Positions 9,451 to 19,429 of a stretch of DNA of 20,296 nucleotides are shown here, piece after piece. A model generated the notes under the pieces. It did no database searches. It was not told where the DNA came from and worked only from the letters and a program-made list of their open reading frames with translations. The stretch lies in the IMG/VR virus record IMGVR_UViG_3300033182_000397, positions 1 to 20,296 of that record, one strand, 5' to 3'. Both the position numbers and the translations under genes were made by a program. Position 1 is the first letter of the stretch. The number at the start of each line of letters is the position of its first letter. The DNA is from a virus.

Positions 9451-12400
9451 ATGGCACAAAAAACAAATCTTAATGCTGCACCTTATTACGACGACTTCAA
9501 TAAGGACAATAATTATGTTCGCACACTCTTTCGGCCTGGTTTCGCAGTTCAGGCGAGAGAACTTACTCAGTTACAGAGTCAGTTGCAGTATCAGATTGAG
9601 GCACACGGTAGTCATGTGTTTAAAGAGGGTGCGTTGGTGGTGCCAGGTGTTAATGGCATTAAAACTTATGAGTCACTAAAACTTGCAACACAATTTGGTG
9701 GGGAAAACGTAGACCCATCAAAATACTATAATGCAACTACACCAGTTGTAATCACTGGTGTAACTAGTGGTGTTGAAGCAGAGGTGATTGGATATCAGGC
9801 AGGGACTACGACAGAACAACCACTTCTTTTTCTGAACTATAAACGGGCAGGAACAGATAATACAACTGTTAGATTTTCTGATAATGAAAATATTACTGCT
9901 AGTGTTGCAATTCAACATGATGCAACATCTTATGATGCTGACGTTGCTTCAGCAACTACTTTTACTGCAACTTCTACTGATGCAACAAGTGCAACAGGAC
10001 CAGCAGCAGTAAAAGGTTCTGCATACTTTACCAAACCAGGCGTTTACTATGTTCGTGGTTTCTTTGTTGCGGTCACTGAACAAGTACTAACACTTGACCC
10101 ATACAATAGAGACTTTAACGGATTTGTTGGTTTTGATATTACAGAGACACTAGTTACTCCAGAGGATGAATCATCACTTTTAGACAACGCACAGGGTTCT
10201 TCAAACTTTGCTGCAAAGGGTGCTCATCGTCTTCAGTTCACTCTTACTCTTGCAAAGAAAACAACTGCAACTAATGCAAACTTTGTTCAAATTGCACAGA
10301 TTAAAAATGGTGTAGTTGTTGCACAAGGTAGAGAAACAGAATACTCTGTGCTTGCAGAAGAGTTTGCAAGACGTACATTTGATGAGTCTGGTAACTACAC
10401 TGTTCGTCCATTTCAGTTTAGTGTTGAAGAGTCAGTAACGGTAAATGAGAACACTGGTAGATTTGCAGTTGGTGCAACTACAGATGATGGTAATACTGCA
10501 AGTTCAGATTTACTTGCAATCAAGGTTTCTCCCGGCAAAGCTTATGTCAATGGTTTTGAACTTGACAAGAATGTTCCAACGTTCAAGGACATCAATAAGG
10601 CTCGTGACTTTGAAACTAAGAATGCTGACATCACAGTTTTTGATACTGGTAACTATGCACTCATCACAAATATCTATGGCACACCAGATATCTCAGAAGT
10701 AACCAGTGAGGCAACTCCTTTCAAAGAGTGTCAGTTCTATGATACACAGAACTCATCTCGTGGCACGGCAAACGGAACACTGATTGGCGTGGGACGGGCT
10801 CGTTCTATGTCATATCATAGTGGCACGGCGGGTGCAACTTCTTCTAACACAACCTCACAGTATAAGTTGTTCTTGTTTGATCTAAGACCATTTACAGTTT
10901 TAACTCTAAGTGGTACACCAAGTCCAACACTCACCGCAACCCATACTGATGGTGTTCTTGTTACAGGTGTGACAAGTGGTGCAACTGGTCTTGTATTTGG
11001 TGAAGGTACATCAACAACTAATGTCAACCTAACAAATGTTATCGGAACGTTCTCTGCTGGTGAAAAGATTACGGCTTCAGACTCATCTGAAACAGATAGT
11101 ATTGTTGAGGACTCTGGTAACACAGACTTGACAATCTCATCAGTAACTACATATTCATTCCAAGACTTCAAACAAATCTTCATGGATGATGCAGATTCTG
11201 GACAAGACTTTACTGCTGATCTTGTTCTTGATAATGAGTTAACACTTAGTGGTACATATCGTACAGAGACAAGTGGTACAAACAACCTTATTGGTGTGTC
11301 TGGTTATGACACTAGTGAGGTCAAGGTTGGTGACGTTCTAGAAATTCCAACTGGTAATATCGGTCAGACTGAAGAAAGAGTTGTTGATGATGTAACATCA
11401 AATGCAATCTCATTTACTGTTGCACCCACAACCGATGAAATTACAACCGCAAACGTTATTCGTAAACGTGCTCAGTTGAAAGACCCAGAAAAAAATATCG
11501 CACTATTCAAACCATCAAAGAAGGTTGTAAAGACTCACTTGACAACTGCAAATGGCGGTGCAAGTGATACACAATTCACTATTCGCAGACAGTTCGTTGG
11601 TACAACAGATGCATCTGGTGTGGTATCATTTACTGCTGGTACAAACGAAACCTTCAATGGTTTTGCAGAGGGTGATTACACACTGTCAATTCTAACAGCA
11701 GGAACAGGAACAGGCGCACAGGGTGATATTGTTAGTCTGGATGGAAAACTCACTGGAACTGGAACTGGTTCCTTAACTGTTACTGACGCAAGTATCTTAG
11801 GTAATAGTGCAAAGGTAAAACTTCTTGCAACCACAACGAAGACTTCTGTTACACAAAAGAATAAAACTGTTAAGTTGATGAAACAGGTAAAGGTAACACC
11901 AGGCACAGCTGATGCATATGGTACACGCCCAACTGATAAAGAAATTTCTCTTGGCCGTGCAGATGCATTTAAACTTGTTGCAGTGTTTGACTCAGAAGAC
12001 ACATCAACAGATGCTGTTGCACCAGAACTAACCACAGGTGCAATCACTGGTACATTCACTAGAGGTGAAAAGATTACGGGCGGAACAAGTGGTGCAACGG
12101 GTAGAATTATTGACACATCATCACCATTTAGTTATGTTCTGACATCAGCAACAGACTTTGCTGTGGGTGATGTTATTACAGGAGAATCCTCTGGCGCAAC
12201 TGCAACAGTGAGTGCAGTGACGGCGGGTGATGTTGTTATCACCTCAGACTTCCTTCTTGATACAGGACAACGTGATAACTTCTATGATATTTCTCGTATC
12301 ATCAGAAAACCAAGTGTTCCCACACCACAGGGTAGACTCCTCGTAGTTTATGATTATATGGAACACGGTACTGGTGATGTAATGACAGTTGACTCATATA

Positions 12401-15400
12401 CTGATGTTGCAAACCAGATGGATTACGAAGATATTCCATCATACAATGCATCAAGAGTTGACCCAGATGATCCAGAACCCACAGGTCTGTTCCCACTATA
12501 TGAAACATACGACTTTAGACCAAGAGTTGCTGACATTGCTGGTGCAAGTGCAACACTTTCAACAGTAGACGAAATCACTGGAAACTCTTTCGACTTTACC
12601 TCTAGAGTTTACACTGGTACGGGTTCATCTTATTCTAACTTTGGTAAACCAGCTTCTAACGTTCAGTCCGATCTTGAGTATTATTTGCCAAAACGTGCAT
12701 CTATTTTCATGGACGACAGAGGCAATATTATTGTAAGGGAGGGTGCATCTTCTGAAAGACCTCGGTTACCAACTCCTGTTGATAATGCAATGAAACTTGC
12801 AGACCTTTCTTTACCCGCATTTACATTTAAACCATCAGACGTAACTTTGACTAGAGAAAGAACTCAAAGATTTACGATGCGTGATATTGGTAGGATGGAA
12901 CAAAGACTTACCGATGTTGAAAGAGTTACCACACTTTCATTGCTTGAGAAAGATGCACAATCCTTTGAGGTCACTGATGCAAACGGACTAAACAGATTTA
13001 AGTCTGGTTTCCTCGTTGACGCATTCCGTGGTCACTCTGTTGGTGATACTCAGCACCCTGATTATAGAAATTCTATGGATATGCAATTGGGAGAATTACG
13101 TCCAGTTCATAAGACAAAGGGTATTGGCCTTATTGAACAGGCAACTACTGATACTGCAAGAACAACTGCTGGTTATCAGAAGACAGGTGACCTTTTGACA
13201 CTTCCATACACAGAAGAGGTTATTTCCGAAAACCCATTTGCAACGACAGTGGAAAGAGTTACGCCGTTTCTTACTGCAAGTTGGAATGGTAAAGTTATAC
13301 TTGACCCAGACCAAGACTCTTGGTTTGAAACAGAGGTTGCACCAGAACTTGTTATCAATGTTGATGGTAACTTTGATGCAGTTGCTGCTGCAAATAGAAA
13401 CCAGTTGGGAACTGTTTGGAATGCATGGCAGGATACATGGAGTGGTCGAATTAGAACAATTCGGATTCCGAACGGTCTTGACGACGGCGGCAAAGGCTGG
13501 GACCCCTCGACCACCACCCGCACAGTAGAAACTGGCACTTCAAGAAGAACTGGAACAAGAACTTTTGTTGAAGAATCTGTTGAAAGAGAGAGTCAGGGTT
13601 TCAGAACAATATCTAGAGTTGCAATTCCTGTTGTTCGTGCAAGGAATGTTCGTTTTGATGCTGAGGGTTTAAGACCATTTACAAGAGTTTATGTATTCTT
13701 TGATAATAGAGATGTAAATGCATATGTCACACCAGACTCAGATTCAACTACAGATTCAACACCCGCTGCAGGAAGTCCACTAATTGTTAAATCCGATAGT
13801 AGATGTGGTGGTACGTTTGCAATTCCAGACCCAAAAATTTCTGGTAATCCACAGTTCCAAACTGGGGATATTCTGTTTAAGATAACTGGAAGTAGCACTA
13901 ATGCAAATGACCCAACCACTTTTGCACAAACAACTTACAGTGCAAATGGTATTCTTGAAACAAGACAAGAAACTATTATTGCAACTCGTAATGGTAGACT
14001 TGCAGCTGAAAATGTTAGTCAAACAAGAGGTATACAACGTGAAGCTCAAGGCTTCTTCGCCGGCGGTGGTGACGATAACTCTGATGGCACTGGTAGTTGT
14101 TTTGTTGCTGGAACTATTGTTAGAATGGCTGATGGTTCCGATAAGAAAATTGAAGACGTACAGATTGGTGACATTCTTCTTGGTATGGATGGTGCGGAAA
14201 ATACAGTATTAGAATTTGATCATCCAATGTTAGATGGTCGTGATCTTATTGGTATTAATGGATCAGGTCCGTTTAAAACACCCGAGCATCCACTCTTAAC
14301 TAAAGATGGATGGAAGGCATATAACAGTCAAGATACTATTGAACAAAAACCACAGATAGCTCATTTAATGACTAATGGCAATCTCGAAGTTGGTGATGAA
14401 ATTAAAGATATTAATGGCAACTGGATTTTAGTTGAAAGTCTTGAAGTTTTTGAAAACGAAGAAGAACAACAAGTATATAACTTCGTGTTGGACGGAAATA
14501 ATACATACCATGCAAATGGACTTGTAGCCCATAACCGTGATCCATTGTGTCAGACTTTCATTATTGCTGACGAAGATAAACAGTTTAACGCAGATTTGGG
14601 TGGAAGTAACACAGATGCTGGTAGATTTGTAACATCTATTGACTTGTTCTTCTCTGCTAAAGATGATACACTTCCAATTAGTGTTGAAATTCGTAACGTT
14701 GTAAATGGATATCCCGGCCCTAAAGTTCTACCATTTAGTAGGGTTACTCTGTCACCATCTGAAGTTAATGTCTCTTCTGATGGTAAAACTGCAACTAAGT
14801 TTACTTTCAAATCTCCAGTTTACCTACAGTCTATGGCGGAGTATTGTTTCGTTGTTCTAACAAATACACCAAATTATATTATGTGGATTTCTGATTTGGG
14901 GCAAGATGATGCCGATGGTAATCTTGTTTCTGAACAACCACACATTGGTGTTCTTTTCAAAGGACACAATAACCGTACTTGGGTTGCTTCACCAACACAA
15001 GATGCAAAGTTTACTCTTCGTGCCGCTGTTTTTGATACAAGTGCTGCTGGTGCAGTCACTCTTACCAATGACACAGTACCAACACTCACTCTTGGTAAGA
15101 ATCCACTAGTGATGACAAATGGCAGTACCACTCTAAAGGTAAACCATTTTGATAACCAGATGCACTCTACATCAAACAATGTCACAATTAGTGGTGTGGT
15201 GTCTGGTGCAGAGACTACACTTAATGGTGCTATTGCAAGTGATGCAACTGCAATCACACTAACCTCTGGTACAAACTTTGATGATACTACAGGTAAGTAT
15301 GCTCCAACCGCAGTTGGTAGTATCTACTATATCAAGATTGGTGATGAGATTATTTCTTACACCTCAATCACAGGTAATAATATTACTGGTGCAACAAGAG

Positions 15401-16422
15401 GTGTCGGTGGAACAACTGCTACAGCCCACGCAAATGGTGCAACAGTAGAATTGTACATGCTACATAAAGTTCCATTTACAGAAATCAATAAGACGCATAC
15501 TGCTATTGCAAATACATCTACGGATTATTACACAGTTTCTCTTTCAACAACACCAGTTGTTGCAAGTGGTGGTGACTCATCATTTGGTGGAACATCTGTA
15601 ACTGCAACAGAAAATGCAATGTATGATGTCAGCAGTACAATCATTGGAACTCTCATTCCACCAGAGTGTGATATTGTTTCAAAGATTAGACCCACAACTG
15701 CAACAAGTGCTAGTGGTTCTCAAACTTCATTCACACTGTCTACTCTTGCTAATGCAGAGACAGTTCCGTTGAATGATAATTACTATTATGAAGACCCATA
15801 TATGGTTGCCTCTGAGATTAACGAGACAAACGAAATGTCTGGTGATAAGTCTTTGATTATGCCATTGACACTCTCTTCAACAAATAGTAATGTATCTCCT
15901 GTTATCGACTTGAAGAGAATGACATTCTTGGCGATTGCAAACAGGATTAATGAGATTGACTCATCTGCTGATGTATATCCTACATCAATCTATGATCCAA
16001 TGACAGACCCATCTGGTGATGACCACGATGCAATCTATTTGACAAAACGTGCAACACTGGAAAATCCTGCAACATCACTCAGAGTTATCTTTGATGCAAA
16101 CAGAGAGGACACTGCTAATATCAAGGTTCTCTACAAAATTCTGAGAACTGATGATGCAAATGACTTTGATGAACTGGACTATAAGTTCTTCAATGATGAT
16201 GGGACCGTTGCCGGTTCTGGTGGACCAGACGTAAGTGTGTCTCCATCACTTGGTATTAATCAGTTTAACGAGTATGAGTTCACCGCTGGTGTGACAGACG
16301 ATGGTATTGGTACACCACTTGATGAGTTCATTGCCTTCCAGATTAAGATTGTAATGCGGGCAACAAACTCTGCAAGACCACCAAGGATTAAAGACCTTAG
16401 AATTCTAGCACTGGCGACATAA
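9451..16422 (+). CDS. Giant DUF4815-type baseplate/tail protein with an internal Hint domain
   Basis: This is a 2323-residue protein. Its N-terminus, NLNAAPYYDDFNKDNNYVRT, followed by FRPGFAVQARELTQLQSQLQ, is the hallmark of DUF4815-type structural proteins of T4-like marine phages. Further landmarks are GRLLVVYDYMEHGTGDVMTV (about residue 960), DIGRMEQRLTDVERVTTLSL then KSGFLVDAFRGHS (about 1146-1195), NPFATTVERVTPF (about 1264), and DPLCQTF (1697-1703) with SIDLFFSAKDDTLPISVEIR after it. Just before DPLCQTF a Hint domain occupies residues 1550-1695. Several TSGAT motifs occur in the first 920 residues. In T4 order the position after gp8 is that of gp9/gp10, so an outer-wedge or fibre-network role is likely but not shown. 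The start, 1 base after gp8's stop, has AGTGGAA upstream. Confidence 0.88.
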   Translation: MAQKTNLNAAPYYDDFNKDNNYVRTLFRPGFAVQARELTQLQSQLQYQIEAHGSHVFKEGALVVPGVNGIKTYESLKLATQFGGENVDPSKYYNATTPVVITGVTSGVEAEVIGYQAGTTTEQPLLFLNYKRAGTDNTTVRFSDNENITASVAIQHDATSYDADVASATTFTATSTDATSATGPAAVKGSAYFTKPGVYYVRGFFVAVTEQVLTLDPYNRDFNGFVGFDITETLVTPEDESSLLDNAQGSSNFAAKGAHRLQFTLTLAKKTTATNANFVQIAQIKNGVVVAQGRETEYSVLAEEFARRTFDESGNYTVRPFQFSVEESVTVNENTGRFAVGATTDDGNTASSDLLAIKVSPGKAYVNGFELDKNVPTFKDINKARDFETKNADITVFDTGNYALITNIYGTPDISEVTSEATPFKECQFYDTQNSSRGTANGTLIGVGRARSMSYHSGTAGATSSNTTSQYKLFLFDLRPFTVLTLSGTPSPTLTATHTDGVLVTGVTSGATGLVFGEGTSTTNVNLTNVIGTFSAGEKITASDSSETDSIVEDSGNTDLTISSVTTYSFQDFKQIFMDDADSGQDFTADLVLDNELTLSGTYRTETSGTNNLIGVSGYDTSEVKVGDVLEIPTGNIGQTEERVVDDVTSNAISFTVAPTTDEITTANVIRKRAQLKDPEKNIALFKPSKKVVKTHLTTANGGASDTQFTIRRQFVGTTDASGVVSFTAGTNETFNGFAEGDYTLSILTAGTGTGAQGDIVSLDGKLTGTGTGSLTVTDASILGNSAKVKLLATTTKTSVTQKNKTVKLMKQVKVTPGTADAYGTRPTDKEISLGRADAFKLVAVFDSEDTSTDAVAPELTTGAITGTFTRGEKITGGTSGATGRIIDTSSPFSYVLTSATDFAVGDVITGESSGATATVSAVTAGDVVITSDFLLDTGQRDNFYDISRIIRKPSVPTPQGRLLVVYDYMEHGTGDVMTVDSYTDVANQMDYEDIPSYNASRVDPDDPEPTGLFPLYETYDFRPRVADIAGASATLSTVDEITGNSFDFTSRVYTGTGSSYSNFGKPASNVQSDLEYYLPKRASIFMDDRGNIIVREGASSERPRLPTPVDNAMKLADLSLPAFTFKPSDVTLTRERTQRFTMRDIGRMEQRLTDVERVTTLSLLEKDAQSFEVTDANGLNRFKSGFLVDAFRGHSVGDTQHPDYRNSMDMQLGELRPVHKTKGIGLIEQATTDTARTTAGYQKTGDLLTLPYTEEVISENPFATTVERVTPFLTASWNGKVILDPDQDSWFETEVAPELVINVDGNFDAVAAANRNQLGTVWNAWQDTWSGRIRTIRIPNGLDDGGKGWDPSTTTRTVETGTSRRTGTRTFVEESVERESQGFRTISRVAIPVVRARNVRFDAEGLRPFTRVYVFFDNRDVNAYVTPDSDSTTDSTPAAGSPLIVKSDSRCGGTFAIPDPKISGNPQFQTGDILFKITGSSTNANDPTTFAQTTYSANGILETRQETIIATRNGRLAAENVSQTRGIQREAQGFFAGGGDDNSDGTGSCFVAGTIVRMADGSDKKIEDVQIGDILLGMDGAENTVLEFDHPMLDGRDLIGINGSGPFKTPEHPLLTKDGWKAYNSQDTIEQKPQIAHLMTNGNLEVGDEIKDINGNWILVESLEVFENEEEQQVYNFVLDGNNTYHANGLVAHNRDPLCQTFIIADEDKQFNADLGGSNTDAGRFVTSIDLFFSAKDDTLPISVEIRNVVNGYPGPKVLPFSRVTLSPSEVNVSSDGKTATKFTFKSPVYLQSMAEYCFVVLTNTPNYIMWISDLGQDDADGNLVSEQPHIGVLFKGHNNRTWVASPTQDAKFTLRAAVFDTSAAGAVTLTNDTVPTLTLGKNPLVMTNGSTTLKVNHFDNQMHSTSNNVTISGVVSGAETTLNGAIASDATAITLTSGTNFDDTTGKYAPTAVGSIYYIKIGDEIISYTSITGNNITGATRGVGGTTATAHANGATVELYMLHKVPFTEINKTHTAIANTSTDYYTVSLSTTPVVASGGDSSFGGTSVTATENAMYDVSSTIIGTLIPPECDIVSKIRPTTATSASGSQTSFTLSTLANAETVPLNDNYYYEDPYMVASEINETNEMSGDKSLIMPLTLSSTNSNVSPVIDLKRMTFLAIANRINEIDSSADVYPTSIYDPMTDPSGDDHDAIYLTKRATLENPATSLRVIFDANREDTANIKVLYKILRTDDANDFDELDYKFFNDDGTVAGSGGPDVSVSPSLGINQFNEYEFTAGVTDDGIGTPLDEFIAFQIKIVMRATNSARPPRIKDLRILALAT
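9745..9786 (+). repeat. ITGVTSG motif copy in the giant protein
   Basis: Residues 99-112 (VVITGVTSGVEAEV) form the first, slightly diverged copy of the motif in this protein. A closer copy, VLVTGVTSGATGLV, is at residues 502-515 (10954-10995). Confidence 0.65.
12049..12210 (+). repeat. Tandem pair of GxxITGxxSGAT motifs
   Basis: Residues 867-886 (GTFTRGEKITGGTSGATGRI) and 906-920 (GDVITGESSGATATV) are two units 39 residues apart. That spacing is nearly the same as the 38 residues between the two copies in the gp7-position protein. Confidence 0.75.
14098..14535 (+). other. Hint (intein-like) domain, residues 1550-1695 of the giant protein
   Basis: The 146-residue block starts at Cys1550 with CFVAGTIVRMADG and IEDVQIGDILLG (block A). 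It contains FKTPEHPLLT with Thr1610 and His1613 (block B, TxxH), and ends with NNTYHANGLVAHN, giving penultimate His1694 and terminal Asn1695 (blocks F and G). The size fits a minimal Hint domain with no homing endonuclease. A Gly-rich linker (AGGGDDNSDGTGS) precedes it. The residue after Asn1695 is Arg1696, where a splicing intein would have Cys, Ser or Thr. This combination resembles bacterial-intein-like domains that cleave at one or both ends. Whether it cleaves, splices or is inert cannot be read from the sequence. Confidence 0.88.
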
Positions 16423-18527: not shown

Positions 18528-19088
18528 ATGGCATATATTTGGACAGATAAAATTGCGGATGTTACTTACACAAATCCAGCGTTGGATACTGTAAAGATTC
18601 TCTGGAAAGATGATATGAACGTCTATCGTGAGCACTACCTTAAGGTGGATGAAGAAGATGAACAGTTCATGGCTCTTCTTGGTGAGACATCTTATGAGGA
18701 TATTGAACTTCGTACTAAGGCTGCAAATAATATTATTCGTCAGGAATTTAAGGATGCATTTGATCGTTATGCAGAGCGCACTGGTATATATACTGGTAGT
18801 GGTCCATTAGAAAATAATACAGGATTTTTTAGGTTCTTTAGTAATTTTGATCCTGAGAATGCAGAAGACAAAGAGAGGTTGTTTGCATTAAAACTTAGTA
18901 TTTTTGAAAAAGATGAAGTGAAAGATTCTGAAGTAAATGAAAAAACAAAGAGTACAAAGACTGCAATCAGGAAGGCAAAAAACCCAATTGAAATTCTTGC
19001 ACTTTATCAACTTTTTAGAAATGAAGATGCAGAGATTCATAAAGACGAAGAGGGTAACATCACAGGAGTATTCGTTCCCTTTACATGA
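18528..19088 (+). CDS. Acidic protein of unknown function
   Basis: This 186-residue protein is rich in Glu, Asp and Lys and is mostly helical in character, unlike the Ser/Thr beta proteins before it. Segments include MAYIWTDKIADVTYTN at the start, YLKVDEEDEQFMALLGETSY (about residues 37-56), and KAKNPIEILALYQLFRNEDA (about 149-168). No signal peptide, membrane segment or known domain is visible. It starts after a clear AAGGAA site 11 bases beyond the structural gene's stop and overlaps the carbamoyltransferase-like gene by 4 bases (ATGA), so these two are probably co-translated. I do not recognise the family. An assembly or scaffold-type role near the tail genes, or a partner of the downstream genes, would both be guesses. 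Confidence 0.75.
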   Translation: MAYIWTDKIADVTYTNPALDTVKILWKDDMNVYREHYLKVDEEDEQFMALLGETSYEDIELRTKAANNIIRQEFKDAFDRYAERTGIYTGSGPLENNTGFFRFFSNFDPENAEDKERLFALKLSIFEKDEVKDSEVNEKTKSTKTAIRKAKNPIEILALYQLFRNEDAEIHKDEEGNITGVFVPFT

Positions 19089-19429
19089 TTATAGGTATAT
19101 CAGAAGGTTTTCATGATGCTGCTATTTGTGTCCTAGACGATAACAAGATTGTTTTTGCATCTCACGCAGAGAGACACAGTAGAAAAAAAGGTGACAAATA
19201 CCTTCACTGGTATCAACTGTCAAAGATACGAGATAATCGTGACGCAATAGTTGCATACTATGAGAAATCATTTTCTAAAAATCTAAGACGACTCTACGCT
19301 GGACAGAAGTGGAAGAAACCTCGCATTAGATATGATGTGAGTTTTCGTCATCATGAGTCCCATGCTGCAGCAGGACACACATTAATTGCAGAGAGATTAT
19401 ATGATGAGTATCAGAAGATTTATCTATAG
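19085..19429 (+). CDS. Truncated carbamoyltransferase N-terminus (NodU/CmcH-like)
   Basis: The 114 residues match only the start of the O-carbamoyltransferase family (NodU, CmcH, TobZ). MIIGISEGFHDAAICVLDDN fits the ASKHA-type phosphate-binding opening, ASHAERHSRKKGD fits the ERxxRxK region, and FRHHESHAAAG (His89, His90, His93) is the metal-binding His motif shared with Kae1/TsaD-like domains. Family members are usually around 500-600 residues. This frame ends at TAG soon after the His motif, and neither other forward frame continues the protein. The catalytic remainder is therefore missing, and the gene is probably a remnant or a small stand-alone domain. The family transfers carbamoyl groups to sugars or hydroxyls, and marine phages are known to carry full copies. 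It overlaps the upstream gene by 4 bases. Confidence 0.72.
   Translation: MIIGISEGFHDAAICVLDDNKIVFASHAERHSRKKGDKYLHWYQLSKIRDNRDAIVAYYEKSFSKNLRRLYAGQKWKKPRIRYDVSFRHHESHAAAGHTLIAERLYDEYQKIYL

Follow-up and report, generated by a model that had tools for sequence, protein, structure and literature searches.

A-type bacterial intein-like (BIL) domains carry Cys1 and a terminal His-Asn without a nucleophile at the +1 position, and have been reported both to cleave and to ligate (reviews PMC4031507, PMC7664689, PMC5874633). In ligation the released amine attacks the thioester, joining the flanks (review PMC4031507); cleavage products dominate (reviews PMC4031507, PMC7664689). Solved examples are a Clostridium thermocellum domain (2lwy), with a TxxH-like block B, a His-Asn end, a length of ~140 aa and no endonuclease, and BIL2 from the BUBL1 locus of Tetrahymena thermophila (6y75, 6tmm), in whose deposited structure Cys1 and the terminal Asn143 are mutated. 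No BIL-type Hint in a phage baseplate was found described in the literature searched. The window analysed here, a viral stretch of 20 296 nt, encodes a domain of this kind within a baseplate protein, a tail component of uncultured T4-like phages.

The ORF carrying it (9451–16422, plus strand) is open throughout and 2323 aa long. Its product matches Pfam DUF4815 (1.3e-53) and phrog_358 (E~0), and phmmer finds the DUF4815 chain in the baseplate of Staphylococcus phage phi812 (9euf, 7e-41). Because of these matches and because the genes around it are of baseplate type (gp25-like, gp6-like, wedge protein, gp9/10-like and gp8-like), the description as a giant baseplate protein in the initial annotation of this DNA is correct. 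An N-terminal part (9451–14052, plus strand), comprising the DUF4815 region and a beta-rich domain, precedes a flexible linker, FFAGGGDDNSDGTGS (14053–14097, plus strand), recognised from a structural model and from alleles with an empty site. The linker is Asp/Gly-rich here and likewise in relatives that lack the Hint, and its length and content vary among relatives. It is predicted to be disordered (pLDDT <35) in a 485-aa model spanning N-part, Hint and C-part, a model of low confidence (64) from which we take no more than this disorder and the phi812 match. The C-terminal part (14539–16419, plus strand) begins DPLCQTF. Further along the window, downstream of the baseplate genes, a short ORF matches a carbamoyltransferase N-terminus (19085–19429) and is followed by a radical SAM gene that runs off the contig end (19489–20295).

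Residues 1550–1695 (14098–14535, plus strand) form a Hint domain of 146 aa. It starts CFVAGT, has TPEH at its positions 61–64 and ends AHN, followed by Arg (CGT). Cys1 (Cys1550, 14098–14100) is the predicted nucleophile of an N-S acyl shift, block B is Thr1610 to His1613 (14278–14289), and His1694-Asn1695 (14530–14535) is the predicted site of Asn cyclisation; the +1 Arg occupies 14536–14538, all on the plus strand. Pfam Hom_end_hint matched at 1.7e-10, above the cut-off, with weaker matches to Vint, Hint and PT-HINT. The AlphaFold2 model of the domain has a mean pLDDT of 87 (core >90), and with it Foldseek gave as best solved matches BIL2 6y75 (1.5e-9) and BIL 2lwy (1.7e-8), with inteins and Hedgehog ranking lower. 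The same two structures headed a profile search of the PDB, where 2lwy was best at 3e-15. Chance resemblance is ruled out by the profiles, the fold and 34 homologues, and an assembly artefact by the presence of the Hint on independent contigs at 98% (L002) and 73% (L003) amino acid identity. An in-frame block with Cys1, TxxH and terminal HN, Arg in place of the +1 nucleophile, a BIL-like nature and chain sizes of 1549, 146 and 628 aa had all been put forward from the letters alone; the ORF, Pfam, the homologues, the CGT codon, the PDB profile search and the confidently predicted Hint fold bear out the first three, and the arithmetic of the last is correct.

Every sequence and structural feature that we examined points to an A-type BIL, for which self-processing is predicted: the Hint fold with an N-terminal Cys (Pfam, AlphaFold2, Foldseek), the C-terminal His-Asn, a +1 residue that is not Cys, Ser or Thr, and a position in a variable region of the host protein, the disordered linker. 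The C. thermocellum domain agrees in all the traits listed above and is 29% identical in the Foldseek alignment; the window group differs from BILs of the 2lwy type in its phage baseplate setting, in a +1 residue that is always Arg or Lys, and in forming arrays of up to four. BIL2 is the best structural match (TM 0.72), but it belongs to a eukaryotic locus, is 21% identical and has no phage context. Class 1 mini-inteins such as gp41-1 and Ssp DnaB share the Hint fold, Cys1, His-Asn and patchy in-frame gain and loss; a canonical class 1 intein is nevertheless ruled out by the Arg where Cys, Ser or Thr is expected and by the site, a disordered linker rather than the conserved functional or active site of a conserved protein. 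A homing endonuclease domain, frequent but not obligatory in that class, was not found by Pfam in the 146-aa Hint. B-type BILs lack the block G His-Asn motif and Hedgehog (Hog) Hints have a sterol-recognition end without His-Asn; both are ruled out by the His-Asn present here, the latter also by the 628-aa baseplate part that follows. The pretoxin HINT of polymorphic toxins (PF07591) resembles the window Hint in lying between a constant N-part and a relative-specific tail, and in a weak profile match, but it is followed by a toxin domain; here the host is a baseplate protein, no toxin tail was found, and what follows is a conserved C-part with homology to baseplate proteins.

The closest Hint-less allele, L157, has a C-part 92% identical to that of the window in the tree alignment. 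Its linker reads ...GDGNDGGS/DPLAQTF, against ...NSDGTGS/C...HN-R/DPLCQTF in the window, and at the DNA level the two differ by a 441-nt in-frame unit (14098–14538), the Hint plus the Arg codon, placed between Ser and Asp within the disordered Asp/Gly linker. Comparable empty sites occur in L158, L161 and L162. Since the empty-site alleles lack the Arg, it is part of the module rather than a remnant of the baseplate protein; inheritance from that protein is further ruled out by tandem and terminal Hints, which retain a basic residue. The limits first given, 14098–14535, thus hold for the Hint, while the inserted unit is longer by the codon of its final residue.

We searched IMG/VR with the Hint and with a DNA pattern neutral as to the +1 residue (HN-any residue-DP.AQ[ST]F), and gathered C-part relatives there with a single-protein query. 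Uncultured phages supplied the 34 baseplate Hints of the resulting set; 31 are less than 90% identical, and pairwise values go as low as 30%. Invariant throughout are Cys1, Phe2, Thr6, Asn35, His64, Gly99-Asp100, Asn128, Gly133, Tyr137 and His145-Asn146; in block B the His is thus fixed, with the first position variable. The +1 residue is basic in 34/34 (Lys 19, Arg 15). All pattern matches with a Hint likewise had Arg or Lys there, and the few with other residues (HNP, HNY) had no Hint. The rule holds irrespective of whether a DP.AQ C-domain, another Hint, a short tail or an S74 chaperone tail comes next; the Hint end of L011, for instance, reads HNRCDN. Random loss of the nucleophile as the origin of the +1 Arg is ruled out by this conserved module.

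Beyond baseplates, Lys follows HN in 37/76 Hint relatives encoded by bacteria and archaea, a sample of HN-ending domains biased towards the query, and the basic residue therefore belongs to a wider class. Hints with HN-Lys are frequent in CPR and DPANN genomes (L079–L085, L087–L092, L096–L098 and others), often followed by Gly/Cys-rich tails, and occur as tandem copies in L077, L090 and L107. Distant C-terminal Hints of L033, L035, L036, L038, L127, L128 and L134 end in VHNK and a stop codon, with a single Lys after the Asn. A Pro-rich linker leads into two additional Cys immediately ahead of Cys1 (CCCF) in L060, L062, L065, L066 and L074. Among isolates, no case of the same arrangement covering at least 80% of the window Hint was found, the best listed places being tail-fibre-like, terminase and helicase genes. 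Achromobacter phages JWF and 2-1 (L075 3077–4528, L076 3083–4525) have a Hint-like domain without the His-Asn end in a tail-fibre-like protein, behind a Cys-Asn-rich stretch and two genes ahead of a radical SAM gene, and Ruegeria phage DSS3-P1 and relatives show Hint similarity within genes annotated as tail tape measure protein.

Relatives of the baseplate protein contain zero, one or up to four Hints. Hint-less one-chain homologues are found in the isolates Melnitz, Mosig and S-SM1, and phages nearly identical to that of the window (L157, L161) also lack the Hint. On the C-part tree, where the window clusters with these two, presence and absence are patchy and well-supported branches force at least five changes; thus the Hint was gained or lost repeatedly. 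One alternative is that the Hint only cleaves, as a maturation protease timed to assembly that permanently parts the N- and C-parts; the initial annotation had suggested that self-cleavage may produce chains of roughly 1549 and 628 residues, perhaps timed to assembly. Cutting at this place finds support in a lineage with split genes, described below, which shows that the two parts can be separate chains, and for BILs in general cleavage products dominate (PMC4031507, PMC7664689). Against a needed maturation step stands the presence or absence of the Hint between phages with 92% identical C-parts, and there is no sign of timing. Given the Hint-less cases, baseplates cannot in general depend on cutting to mature, and we regard cleavage as the sole function as possible but somewhat doubtful.

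Arrays comprise four Hints in L031/L054, three in L064, three and the start of a fourth in L066, and two in L022/L068, L029, L057 and L060. Copies are spaced by HN[RK] plus 0–3 more residues, that is by 1–4 residues. Reading frame breaks occur within arrays (L032 and L070 as against L031 and L054; also L066), and may be repeat assembly errors or real decay. Such duplicated copies look like stacked decoration domains, which would suit a dead or purely structural Hint that is never processed. This we consider improbable, given that few residues are invariant across 34 diverse domains and the catalytic ones are among them, and that array copies have no linkers longer than 1–4 residues. The pair L003/L005 also argues against a dead insert: amino acid identity there is 79% in the Hint but ~63% in the flanks, so the Hint is under the stronger constraint.

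In L007, L009 and L011–L013 the ORF ends 11 to ~100 residues past the Asn, with tails that are short or have a Peptidase_S74 chaperone match. The C-part forms the next ORF, which starts 8–11 residues ahead of the conserved Pro. The window C-part aligns over nearly its full length with that of L009 (3–627 to 12–535) and in two blocks with that of L007. With the C-part a separate gene, two chains are therefore viable. The same lineage bears on a self-splicing insert, in which religated protein would be the main product and the Arg would be left as a scar. Excision would give an L157-type linker plus one Arg, the patchy distribution is intein-like, and a BIL ligation route without a +1 nucleophile is on record (PMC4031507); BILs mostly cleave, however (PMC7664689), and the split-gene lineage retains a Hint with intact catalytic residues and nothing left to join, so splicing as the main outcome seems rather unlikely.

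Only 13 residues follow the Hint in L009/L010, where releasing a C-chain consequently cannot be its purpose. That Cys1 is kept there, and in the distant Hints ending VHNK at the stop codon, would fit a Hedgehog-like reaction using the N-terminal thioester alone, with the N-chain transferred to another baseplate or host molecule through an amine or a different nucleophile. The closest fold match, BIL2, derives from BUBL1, a locus with a ubiquitin-like conjugation role. The His-Asn is also invariant, yet dispensable for a Hedgehog-type reaction, and no acceptor was identified; we rate the chance of such a reaction as low.

On balance we think it probable, from the sequences and the predicted fold, that an A-type BIL Hint removes itself from the baseplate linker, so that two chains, a religated protein or both remain. 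After translation, Cys1 would convert the preceding peptide bond to a thioester, and the terminal Asn, aided by the adjacent His, would cyclise, cutting the bond to Arg+1. Because there is no Cys, Ser or Thr at +1, two ways of resolving the thioester would remain. Water would yield chains of ~1549 and ~628 residues alongside the free Hint of 146 residues; the newly formed alpha-amine of Arg+1 would instead rejoin the flanks into one chain that carries an additional Arg. Absence of the nucleophile does not restrict the domain to cleavage, as ligation of the flanks is also within reach of A-type BILs (PMC4031507). The sequences themselves show the domain and its catalytic residues, the exact boundaries, the conservation, the fold prediction, the gain and loss, the arrays and the split-gene orthologues; that the domain is active, in what order its steps run, which product dominates and what the basic +1 residue does are inferred.

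Since the protein occurs both as one Hint-less chain and as two genes, the baseplate could function with either product. Hint-less homologues function as one chain, so the baseplate does not require cutting. The linker likely tolerates both broken and continuous chains, and the Hint is likely kept active since 146-residue leftovers, above all in arrays, would burden the baseplate; arrays of two to four Hints with gaps of 1–4 residues would be most easily tolerated if every copy removes itself. Self-removal leaves two features unexplained, the tandem arrays and the obligate basic +1 residue, the latter not accounted for by simple hydrolysis or Asn cyclisation. As a more speculative suggestion, which we hold to be unlikely, the [C...HN(R/K)] unit may be a mechanistically distinct Hint class in which the basic residue at +1 contributes to the reaction itself, e.g. 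with an amine that resolves the Cys1 thioester, ligating or cross-linking baseplate chains without a +1 Cys, Ser or Thr. Arrays would then yield several ligation or cross-linking events per chain.

These phages offer a natural experiment in which one protein is, at one site, continuous, interrupted by one to four Hints, or split into two genes. It makes testable now the role of a BIL in its native host, the purpose of the conserved basic +1 residue, and the tolerance of a baseplate to a chain break at a defined place. The Arg/Lys rule points beyond phages to a wider Hint class, to which the 37/76 bacterial and archaeal HN-ending relatives with +1 Lys belong.
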